A stretch of DNA of 64,000 nt, taken from the NCBI RefSeq assembly GCF_021032705.1, contig NZ_JAHVXI010000002.1, positions 558,001-622,000 of the forward strand. Reading direction: 5' to 3'. Each line of letters opens with the position of its first letter. Position 1 is the first letter of the stretch. Of the stretch, positions 9,638 through 11,568 are shown one piece after another. The translations under genes and the position numbers were made by a program. The notes under the pieces are model-generated. The model saw only the letters and a list, made by a program, of their open reading frames with translations, was not told the origin of the DNA and did not search any database. This DNA comes from Psychroserpens luteolus (GTDB lineage Bacteria > Bacteroidota > Bacteroidia > Flavobacteriales > Flavobacteriaceae).

Positions 9638-9657
9638 TCCTATAAAAAAAGCGAACC
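9638..9657. repeat. Left copy of 20-bp direct repeat flanking the GIY-YIG cassette
   Basis: Identical over 20 bp to 10071-10090. The right copy is the T-tract side and one arm of the intact lpd terminator; here only that half is present and the other stem arm is missing. It reads as a duplicated target segment or recombination scar. Confidence 0.75.
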
Positions 9658-9660
9658 AAT

Positions 9661-9688
9661 TTGTCATTCCTGCGAAGGCAGGAATCCA
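9661..9688 (+). repeat. REP-like palindrome, left inverted repeat of cassette
   Basis: Contains GTCATTCCTGCGAAGGCAGG, a self-complementary element with a GAAG loop. It matches the repeat at 10041-10068 in inverted orientation with one mismatch, in the loop. Sequences of this 'CATTCCTGC..GCAGGAAT' form are known as dispersed intergenic repeats in many bacteria. Confidence 0.85.
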
Positions 9689-9705
9689 TTTCAATAAACA
9701 ATGGT

Positions 9706-10008
9706 TTACTTAATCCAGTCTTTTGATAAATCATTCCATTTAGGATTTTCTTTTTCGATTAAATTAATTTTCCATTGACGCTTCCATTTTTTCATATTCT
9801 TTTCTCTTTTAATAGCATCATTAACATATTGAAAAGTTTCAAAATAAATTAATCTATTTAAATTATATCGTTTACTAAACCCTTCAAACAATTTATTTTT
9901 ATGTTCAAACATTCTTCGTTCCAAATTGTTTGTAACACCAATATAAAGGGTACCATTATAGCCATTAGATAAAATGTAAAGATAATATTGATGTATTGTT
10001 TTGTACAT
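9706..10008 (-). CDS. Small GIY-YIG endonuclease domain protein (URI/UPF0213 type)
   Basis: A 100-residue protein made of one GIY-YIG domain. The first motif is YLYIL, followed by LYIGVTNNLERRMFEHK with the catalytic Tyr and Arg, and a IYFETF strand carrying the acidic residue; the tail NPKWNDLSKDW is usual for the family. Start chosen at ATG 10008: an ORF runs 20 codons further but those codons (SFLRRQES...) are just the translated palindromic repeat. Family members are structure- or sequence-dependent nucleases; small stand-alone ones are mostly uncharacterised. The gene ends 17 bp from one inverted repeat and begins 32 bp from the other. Confidence 0.88.
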   Translation of the reverse strand: MYKTIHQYYLYILSNGYNGTLYIGVTNNLERRMFEHKNKLFEGFSKRYNLNRLIYFETFQYVNDAIKREKNMKKWKRQWKINLIEKENPKWNDLSKDWIK

Positions 10009-10040
10009 TATTACTAAAATATAAAATTTAGCGACGCATG

Positions 10041-10068
10041 TGGATTCCTGCCTACGCAGGAATGACAA
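10041..10068 (-). repeat. REP-like palindrome, right inverted repeat of cassette
   Basis: Inverted copy of 9661-9688, differing at one loop position (GTAG in place of GAAG on the same strand sense). The 8-bp arms are intact. Confidence 0.85.
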
Positions 10069-10070
10069 TG

Positions 10071-10090
10071 TCCTATAAAAAAAGCGAACC
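10071..10090. repeat. Right copy of 20-bp direct repeat
   Basis: Identical to 9638-9657. It forms the U-tract and one stem arm of the lpd terminator, so this is the more likely original copy. Confidence 0.75.
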
Positions 10091-10107
10091 TATTGGTTCG
10101 CTTTAAA
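10077..10107 (-). terminator. Intrinsic terminator of lpd
   Basis: A 10-bp perfect stem AAAGCGAACC / GGTTCGCTTT with loop TATT. On the minus strand it is followed by a T run. It lies about 60 bp after the lpd stop codon. Confidence 0.85.
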
Positions 10108-10129: not shown

Positions 10130-10155
10130 GATTCCTCGACTACGCTCGGAATGAC
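10130..10155. repeat. Second-type REP-like palindromic repeat
   Basis: The stretch GATTCCTCGACTACGCTCGG and following AATGAC is an imperfect palindrome with ATTCC/GGAAT arms. It is related to, but distinct from, the repeats of the GIY-YIG cassette. This 'CATTCCGAGCGTAGTCGAGGAATC' type is recognised as a common dispersed repeat in flavobacterial genomes. It sits between the lpd stop and its terminator. Confidence 0.7.
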
Positions 10156-10167
10156 AGTCATGATGTT

Positions 10168-11568
10168 CTAAATATGCAATGGTCTATCATCTGTAGCAGC
10201 TAAAGCCGCTTCTTTAACCGCTTCTGCAAATGTTGGATGTGCATGAGACATACGCGAGATATCTTCGGCAGAGGCTCTGTATTCCATAGCTACAACAGCT
10301 TCGGCAATCAAATCGGCACAGCGAGCACCAATCATATGAATTCCTAAAACTTCATCTGTAGTTTTATCGGCTAATATCTTTACAAACCCATCGAGGTCTC
10401 CTCCTGCTCTAGCACGACCTAATGCTCTAAACGGAAATTGTCCAGCTTTATACGCTACTCCTGCTTCTTTCAATTCTTCTTCCGTTTTACCAACTGCTGC
10501 AACTTCTGGCCATGTATATACAACTCCAGGAATTAAATTGTAATTGATATGTGGTTTTTGTCCGGCTAAAGTTTCAGCAACAAACACACCTTCTTCTTCA
10601 GCTTTATGTGCTAACATAGCACCTTTAACTACATCACCAATCGCGTAGATATTAGACACATTGGTTTGTAAATGATCGTTAACTTCTACTTGACCTCTAT
10701 CATTGAGCTTCACACCTGCAGCTTCAGCGTTTAATCCATCAGTATATGGACGACGACCTACAGACACTAAACAGTAATCACCTTTAAACTCAACAACTTC
10801 ACCTTTTTTGTTTTCAGCTTTTACGATAACCTCATCACCGCTTCGTTCAACCGATTGCACTTTGTGAGACATCATCATTTTGAATTTTGCCTTTTTAAAG
10901 ACCTTATTCAATTCTTTTGAAAGTCCTGCATCCATTGTTGGAAGAATGCGATCCATATATTCTATAACGGTCACCTCAGCTCCTAAACGTCTGTAAACTT
11001 GTCCGAGTTCCAATCCAATAACACCACCACCAATTACGATCATATGCTTTGGGATTTCTTTAAGCTTCAGCGCTTCAGTAGATGTGATAATGCGTTCTTT
11101 ATCTAAAGTGATAAACGGTAAATTTGATGGTTTAGAACCTGTAGCAATGATGATATTCTTTGCTTCAATCTCGCCAGCGTCCTTTCCGTCAATCTTAATA
11201 TGCGTTGCATCTTTAAAGCTACCTAGACCTTCATAGACGTCAATCTTATTTTTTTTCATTAAGAAATCAATTCCACCTGTAGTTTGATCAACAACTGCTT
11301 GCTTGCGTCCGATCATTTTTTCTAGGTTGACTTTTATATCTCCAGGAATTTCGATTCCATGATCTTCAAAATGTTTTGTTGCTTCTTCATAATGATGAGA
11401 AGACGCTAAAAGCGCTTTACTCGGAATACAACCAACATTTAAACATGTACCTCCTAGTGTAGAATATTTCTCGATTATTGCAGTTTTCATGCCTAGTTGT
11501 GCACAACGAATTGCTGCTACATATCCACCAGGACCAGAACCTATTATCGCTACATCGTATGATTTCAT
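10168..11568 (-). CDS. lpdA: Dihydrolipoyl dehydrogenase
   Basis: A 466-residue flavoprotein, the usual family length. The FAD-binding motif GSGPGGYVAA (residues 10-19), the redox disulfide GGTCLNVGCIPSKALL (Cys42, Cys47), the NAD-binding motif VIGGGVIGLELG and the C-terminal HAHPTFAEAVKEA with the catalytic His-Glu dyad are all present. It reoxidises dihydrolipoamide in the E3 subunit of 2-oxoacid dehydrogenase complexes and the glycine cleavage system. It is not in an operon with E1/E2 subunits here; it is 69 bp from the preceding TPR gene on the same strand and has its own terminator. Confidence 0.97.
   Translation of the reverse strand: MKSYDVAIIGSGPGGYVAAIRCAQLGMKTAIIEKYSTLGGTCLNVGCIPSKALLASSHHYEEATKHFEDHGIEIPGDIKVNLEKMIGRKQAVVDQTTGGIDFLMKKNKIDVYEGLGSFKDATHIKIDGKDAGEIEAKNIIIATGSKPSNLPFITLDKERIITSTEALKLKEIPKHMIVIGGGVIGLELGQVYRRLGAEVTVIEYMDRILPTMDAGLSKELNKVFKKAKFKMMMSHKVQSVERSGDEVIVKAENKKGEVVEFKGDYCLVSVGRRPYTDGLNAEAAGVKLNDRGQVEVNDHLQTNVSNIYAIGDVVKGAMLAHKAEEEGVFVAETLAGQKPHINYNLIPGVVYTWPEVAAVGKTEEELKEAGVAYKAGQFPFRALGRARAGGDLDGFVKILADKTTDEVLGIHMIGARCADLIAEAVVAMEYRASAEDISRMSHAHPTFAEAVKEAALAATDDRPLHI

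Follow-up and report, generated by a model that had tools for sequence, protein, structure and literature searches.

A unit made of one GIY-YIG nuclease gene between two inverted hairpin palindromes was inserted in this DNA downstream of an lpd-type gene, duplicating 20 bp of the target, and among its relatives the sequence of the hairpins goes with the sequence of the nuclease. We consider it probable that this is a mobile unit of about 0.4 kb resembling a REPtron, with the GIY-YIG protein in the role of the RAYT, and that the nuclease cuts its cognate hairpin while the unit inserts by break repair. The features of the unit and its surroundings are given below, with positions counted along the window, that is, the whole stretch of 64,000 nucleotides that was analysed.

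9638..9657, no strand: far-side copy of the direct repeat, 20 bp, half of the terminator plus the U-tract
9661..9688, plus strand: 3'-side palindrome, tag outward, stem identical to that of the 5'-side one (ATTCCTGC)
9706..10008, minus strand: GIY-YIG nuclease gene, 100 codons, ATG start at 10008 (PF01541)
10041..10068, minus strand: 5'-side palindrome, TTGTC tag outward, stem ATTCCTGC, 4-nt loop, CCA tail, CGTC-1 REP type
10071..10090, no strand: copy of the direct repeat adjoining lpd, 20 bp, overlapping the intact terminator
10081..10104, minus strand: lpd terminator hairpin, intact (fold)
10168..11568, minus strand: lpd-type gene (dihydrolipoamide dehydrogenase), the host gene upstream of the insertion

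We take the gene at 10168..11568 to be lpd, following the initial annotation. The 100-aa product of the gene inside the unit matches the GIY-YIG domain PF01541 over residues 7-82 (Pfam, E=1.5e-14). Across 29 aligned sequences, the window's included, Y11, Y22, G24, R32, H36 and E69 are invariant and N88 is kept in at least 90%. Regarding membership of the GIY-YIG superfamily, the protein has the domain with residues of catalytic type. A Pfam search of the unit gave GIY-YIG and T5orf172 only, with no transposase domain and no HUH tyrosine transposase. The domain is shared with UPF0213 and with the GIY-YIG domains of UvrC/Slx1 (PDB 1ywl, 1zg2, 1yd6, 6seh), to which the match is weak both in sequence (best E=0.002) and in fold. 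A structure model of moderate quality (pLDDT 75) had no strong neighbour in the PDB, the best fold match having an E of 6.1e-3 and a TM of 0.48.

The initial annotation had described a 100-codon GIY-YIG gene within 28-bp inverted repeats that match at 27 of 28 positions, each of them a hairpin, and both the coordinates and the folds agree with this. The single mismatch between the two complementary arms falls in the loop, and each arm folds on itself with an 8-bp stem and a 4-nt loop (-11.5 and -12.2 kcal/mol, with RNA parameters). From the outside inward, both ends read TTGTC-ATTCCTGC-loop-GCAGGAAT-CCA. The direct repeat TCCTATAAAAAAAGCGAACC is perfect over 20 bp (9638-9657 versus 10071-10090) and ends 4 and 5 bp from the two tags; as had been proposed, it consists of half of the lpd terminator with its U-tract, present as one intact and one truncated copy. 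Among 500 first-order Markov sequences for the 750-bp region, the longest direct repeat was 15, compared with 20 in the window. The mismatch in the loop limits the longest exact inverted run to 14, below the 15 reached by random Markov sequences; the case for the inverted repeat therefore depends on the 27/28 match and on its recurrence elsewhere rather than on this control. From the hallmarks of an insertion sequence, terminal inverted repeats and a target duplication are present, and a transposase gene is absent.

Upstream of the gene, the frame is open back through the palindrome (10009-10068) with a TTG start at 10068, so annotated homologs may bear a false N-terminus made of repeat. A second GTC-tagged palindrome, with the stem GTCATTCCGAGCGTAGTCGAGGAATC on the minus strand, lies at 10130-10155 between lpd and the terminator, and versions of it are present in the genomes G167 and G168 of the same genus.

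To find the same site elsewhere, we used the C-terminal part of lpd as bait in the 23 genomes of the genus, the window's included, and its 149 aa were matched in all 23. In G167 (lpd fragment 100% identical) and G168 (97%) the site is uninterrupted: terminator, U-tract and downstream sequence are contiguous, and the alignment contains one copy of the 20-bp segment, point differences aside. The segment is single-copy in loci L116 and L117. According to these results, namely a single copy at uninterrupted sites in two genomes of the same genus, the unit was inserted downstream of lpd with a duplication of 20 bp of its target. The insertion into the terminator region put forward in the initial annotation is thereby borne out, and the observation that it had named as speaking against it, a doubled segment in relatives without the cassette, is not made in G167 and G168, which have one copy only. 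Regarding the GIY-YIG gene itself, G167 and G163 gave no match at E<=0.001, G168 gave two distant matches and the window's genome two more distant ones. Given the uninterrupted relatives and the absence of the gene, the unit is most simply a recent arrival in this lineage.

Similar units are found around many other GIY-YIG genes. A scan with one genome per species gave 128 relatives, of which we kept the best 80; the titles of these 80 name flavobacterial genera or MAGs called Flavobacteriaceae, Flavobacteriales or Bacteroidia. Window-type palindromes with outward tags were present on both sides of 56 of these best 80 relatives (57 counting the window; strict pattern), the recurrence that the initial annotation had expected of its repeats. 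Further homologs were taken from genomes of the family, order and phylum and from plasmid-collection records (12 of the 33 with a homolog were inspected). The total came to 153 loci, 146 of them with full flanks. Not counted among the 153 were repeats of other loci or of the window (L086, L087, L091, L093, L094, L157, L165 and L167) and the tRNA-linked genes L138, L140 and L141, while L092 was kept despite a protein identical to that of L040.

Our detector searched for GTC with a hairpin after it, allowing one mismatch in the hairpin. Tagged hairpins flanked the gene on both sides in 91 of the 146 loci, compared with 8 of 1091 control windows from the same DNA, and the tags pointed outward on both sides in 79 of 146 and 6 of 1091, respectively. 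In the remaining 55 loci a tagged hairpin was absent on at least one side, and some of these have other or imperfect palindromes. An extra control with flanks of 170 nt gave a hairpin 3' of lpd in 2 of 22 other genomes of the genus and 3' of a helicase gene in 1 of 20. One of the two lpd hairpins is an AT-rich match and the other is the GIY-YIG cassette of G158 (L129). Two of the three control-flank hairpins share the window's stem, one of these two being a cassette. The cassette of G158 (L129/L020) lies just beyond the same lpd terminator, at a different position from the window's unit and with no clear 3' palindrome.

Hairpins on both sides were found in A. caviae, A. lipoferum, N. gonorrhoeae, Shinella, Rhizobium sp. 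CIAT894, Novosphingobium and Sphingobium. Hairpins with a CTC variant of the tag flank the homolog on both sides in S. meliloti and on the 3' side only in R. tumorigenes, the Photobacterium homolog has one hairpin on the 3' side, and Planktothrix and Spirosoma have imperfect palindromes, visible by eye and missed by the exact-stem finder. The homologs of Neisseria, Azospirillum, Rhizobium and Sphingobium thus adjoin what are known as CGTC REPs. We rejected phages as the vehicle: the protein was unmatched in 50,697 phage records at E<=1e-5, and three stretches with the pattern in viral contigs included no relative of the protein. The many similar units suggest that the GIY-YIG nuclease fills the role of a partner that had been missing for a widespread class of hairpin repeats in bacteria.

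Different protein sequences come with different stems (ATTCCTGC, ATTCCGCA, ATCCTGAA, ATGCTGAA, ACTGCGCA and others). The upstream stem equals the downstream one in 63 of 92 loci (shuffled mean 23.4, maximum 33), and in 22 of 47 when the commonest stem is removed (shuffled mean 2.5, maximum 8). For the tree and the Mantel test we used the 120 of 153 loci with at least one hairpin, no stop and at least 80 residues. Protein identity correlates with stem identity (Mantel r=0.72, with 0 of 2000 permutations as high), and the nuclease tree, which is weakly resolved, needs 34 stem changes for 32 states, compared with at least 52 in each of 100 shuffles. One assembly holds two units with two stems (L027 and L074). 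The hairpin sequence therefore goes with the nuclease sequence, and part of this co-variation could come from linkage alone, because gene and hairpins travel as one piece.

We also counted palindromes across 149 genomes from 148 genera, taking as a close relative of the gene one with at least 68% identity. All 13 genomes with a close relative (one of these relatives has an internal stop) contained the window-type palindrome, versus 43 of 136 without, and at least three copies were present in 10 of 13 versus 16 of 136, these being hand counts, compared by Fisher test, that include the unit's own two hairpins. Five genomes (G006, G088, G110, G113 and G131) have 21-27 copies yet no close relative of the gene, and up to 46 copies occur in another genome of the family, G061. 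The repeats of the initial annotation are indeed in the window's genome as two full copies, but not as a populated class, since two more matches at two mismatches equal the number in the reversed control. The many copies per genome that characterize CGTC-1 REPs are thus not seen in this genome.

Flanking duplications were measured in 34 single-unit loci, with mismatched pairs as control. Of 57 loci, 23 with further repeats within 150 bp were left out, one of these being the window, because of the other palindrome near lpd. Duplications exceeded the control's 99% level in four of the 34 (L036, L049, L016 and L017), and none was found above that level in the other 30. The 20-bp length and the terminator target singled out by the initial annotation hold for the window, but are not supported more generally: elsewhere the duplications measure 26-55 bp, the 34-locus test rejects 20 bp as a trait of the family, and the other units sit at gene ends, gene starts and operon gaps. 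In L036, 55 bp from the end of a DEAD-box helicase gene are duplicated (50/55 identical), and a second copy of this target within 900 bp was found in 0 of 20 fetched relatives (best score 30 versus 85), at least two of which (L200 and L205) have a unit of their own further on. In L016, L017 and L049 it is the start of a DUF6090 gene that is duplicated; as these genes occur in tandem families, what looks like a duplication may be left over from a tandem paralog. L017 and L049 have flanks in common. In L036, L016, L049 and the window, no more than 10 bp separate the duplication from either tag, and in L017 the distances are 28 and 10 bp. The gene upstream of L016 had no match in 23 genomes, which makes it uninformative on an empty site. 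We also rejected the suf operon of Azospirillum as a further clean empty site: the three sequences that we aligned, out of 11 other Azospirillum matches listed, lack the gene, but their gap is scrambled and no clean duplication is readable.

Among the best 80 of 128 loci, the recurrent neighbours are a helicase gene (12 loci), DUF6090 (9), a DUF808-like gene (8) and trpB-trpA (5). The distance from the helicase gene to the unit varies from 69 to 606 bp, with the unit in two orientations, so no fixed insertion site is seen, and the single conserved insertion point in a target gene that marks a homing endonuclease was not found. High recent mobility was rejected as well. By blastn, homologous flanks surround every one of the 13 closest cassette pairs (at least 92.9% identical), a figure that repeats may inflate, and pairs with different flanks appear from 92.9% identity down and are common below 86%. 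As the closest pairs share their flanks, movement is slow; the shared sites, together with the usual lack of a flanking duplication, indicate that it is rare.

Six units (L147 of A. lipoferum, L032, L045, L065, L075 and L080) lie in operon gaps (sufB-sufC; trpB-trpA) and are oriented along the operon's own transcription, which could allow the nuclease gene to be transcribed with it.

Copies of the unit with internal deletions, bounded by same-type hairpins, were found in L028 (one), L030 (three) and L054 (two). In L008 and L013 the hairpins form arrays, and the inner parts of these show no match to the gene. The direct repeat of L048 was rejected as a target duplication, as it is a tandem copy of the unit. 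Palindrome arrays surround the gene in L008, L009, L012, L013 and L055, in fairly even steps of about 110-120 or 240-265 bp, and their inner parts, where tested, are unlike the gene.

REPs have been sorted into GTAG and CGTC types (Di Nocera, De Gregorio, Rocco 2013, PMC3733652). There, the CGTC-1 type has a C/TGTC tag, an 8-bp stem starting with AT, a 4-nt loop and usually a CCA tail, and dRS3 of Neisseria and RPE-6 of R. conorii are assigned to it. The window's palindrome is alike in tag, AT-first 8-bp stem, 4-nt loop and CCA tail, and CGTC-1 repeats form pairs in opposite orientation, as the window's palindromes do. The paper describes CGTC repeats as apparently without a dedicated transposase, and their links with transposase genes as few and fortuitous; in the main text 'GIY' is absent and 'nuclease' occurs once. 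Carriers of CGTC-1 named there (A. lipoferum, S. meliloti and Neisseria) have a GIY-YIG gene in our set. Evidence of these kinds also tied RAYTs to REPs (Nunvar et al. 2010, PMC2817692), and the RAYT or REPtron resembles our units in several respects: a single gene lies between two REPs in inverted orientation, co-evolves with them, correlates with the number of REPs and is surrounded by REP arrays. The differences lie in the enzyme, RAYTs being tyrosine enzymes of the IS200/IS605 group and the window's unit having a GIY-YIG domain, and in the tag, which is GTAG for RAYT REPs (PMC3733652) and GTC here. The deletion derivatives and hairpin arrays of the GIY-YIG units resemble the RAYT/REP pattern, and the RAYT-like behaviour suggested in the initial annotation is supported by paired inverted repeats, co-variation and derivatives.

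A widespread GIY-YIG family called Ssn, which Chenal et al. are said to have presented in Nature Communications in 2025, reportedly cuts ssDNA at repeated sites. Its members are said to be small enzymes with thousands of homologs and with cognate dispersed sequences, NTS in Neisseria, and the emphasis of that work is reportedly on ssDNA cleavage and transformation. Ssn is described as a GIY-YIG protein with a cognate repeat; in our set the gene is associated with a repeat, which its protein may recognise, and our Neisseria homolog stands beside CGTC-1 repeats. If these accounts of Ssn are right, the pairing of nuclease and repeat has probably been published already, and what is possibly new here is the evidence for a mobile element (uninterrupted sites, target duplications and deletion derivatives) and the identification with CGTC REPs. 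A link between GIY-YIG genes and these repeats was not found in titles and abstract openings among the matches listed (preprints and most subscription texts excepted), which does not imply its absence from print.

In the mechanism that we favour, the nuclease would recognise its cognate hairpin as single-stranded DNA and cut near the tag. The freed unit, or a copy of it, would be taken up by host repair at a staggered break, and repair of that break could produce long flanking duplications that differ in length. Units with internal deletions, as well as REP dimers, would be non-autonomous derivatives, and the whole would operate as a REPtron does (RAYT plus REPs), though through another enzyme. 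As the duplications vary in length and no known strand-transfer domain is present, insertion may proceed by hydrolytic cutting and repair of a staggered break. More tentatively, and with more doubt than confidence, we propose that CGTC REPs have their dedicated mobilising enzymes in this group of GIY-YIG nucleases. These would form a class of one-gene elements without a transposase, found in more than one phylum, that cut their own hairpins, insert elsewhere through break repair with long, variable duplications, and are the source of the dispersed CGTC repeats of Neisseria, alphaproteobacteria and Bacteroidota.

One could argue that the nuclease serves genome maintenance or DNA uptake by cutting dispersed hairpins, and that the unit spreads through ordinary recombination of taken-up DNA. 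We regard this as rather unlikely, although it accords with the slow mobility of the unit, with the many loci common to related species and with what is reported of Ssn in Neisseria. The recombination that it invokes fits poorly with the uninterrupted sites: G167 and G168 have a palindrome of another type upstream of the terminator and none with the window's stem at the junction, so REP-to-REP recombination does not explain the insertion. Besides, homologous recombination alone makes no target duplication, and next to the same helicase gene the unit is found facing either way. It is also conceivable, but very improbable, that the 20-bp repeat is an older duplication of the terminator and that the unit landed between the copies by chance. 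Half-copies of terminators can arise through slippage, but G167 and G168 have a single copy, and a chance landing would have to fall within a few bp of both ends of the repeat.

The other two alternatives concern the moving agent. The GIY-YIG gene might be a passenger, with a host transposase (e.g. of IS200/IS605 type) moving the unit in trans via its hairpins; the unit lacks a transposase domain, and short hairpin ends resemble those of IS200/IS605 elements in form. We hold this to be improbable, as one gene family stands between such hairpins in both Bacteroidota and Pseudomonadota, and beside imperfect ones in a cyanobacterium, and the links of CGTC repeats with transposases are few and fortuitous in PMC3733652. 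A free-standing homing endonuclease, which cleaves fixed conserved targets and enters them when repair copies its gene, seems slightly less probable still. It would account for the recurrent neighbours among the best 80 of 128 loci, but some of the shared sites are inherited, the varied distances and orientations give no fixed site, and matching palindromes at both ends are not predicted.

REPs belong to the repeats often met in bacterial genomes, and by the 2013 account no dedicated enzyme was apparent for the CGTC group. With a cognate nuclease located between the repeats, and with uninterrupted sites and deletion derivatives at hand, the origin and spread of CGTC repeats become directly testable. 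If the units move by the action of the nuclease alone, they would be very small autonomous mobile units, and such site-specific cutters could serve as tools for single-stranded DNA.

The window's genome (G000) contains other GIY-YIG genes in different settings. On contig 11, a gene 51% identical to the window's (L139) lies between nearly identical direct repeats of about 90 bp, each of which holds two palindromes of other types. L138, L140 (G168) and L141 (G000) are GIY-YIG genes with 33-34% identity located beside tRNA-Arg genes, with a partial tRNA copy on the other side, and in G168 they are in tandem. They are possibly another type of one-gene cassette that duplicates its target.
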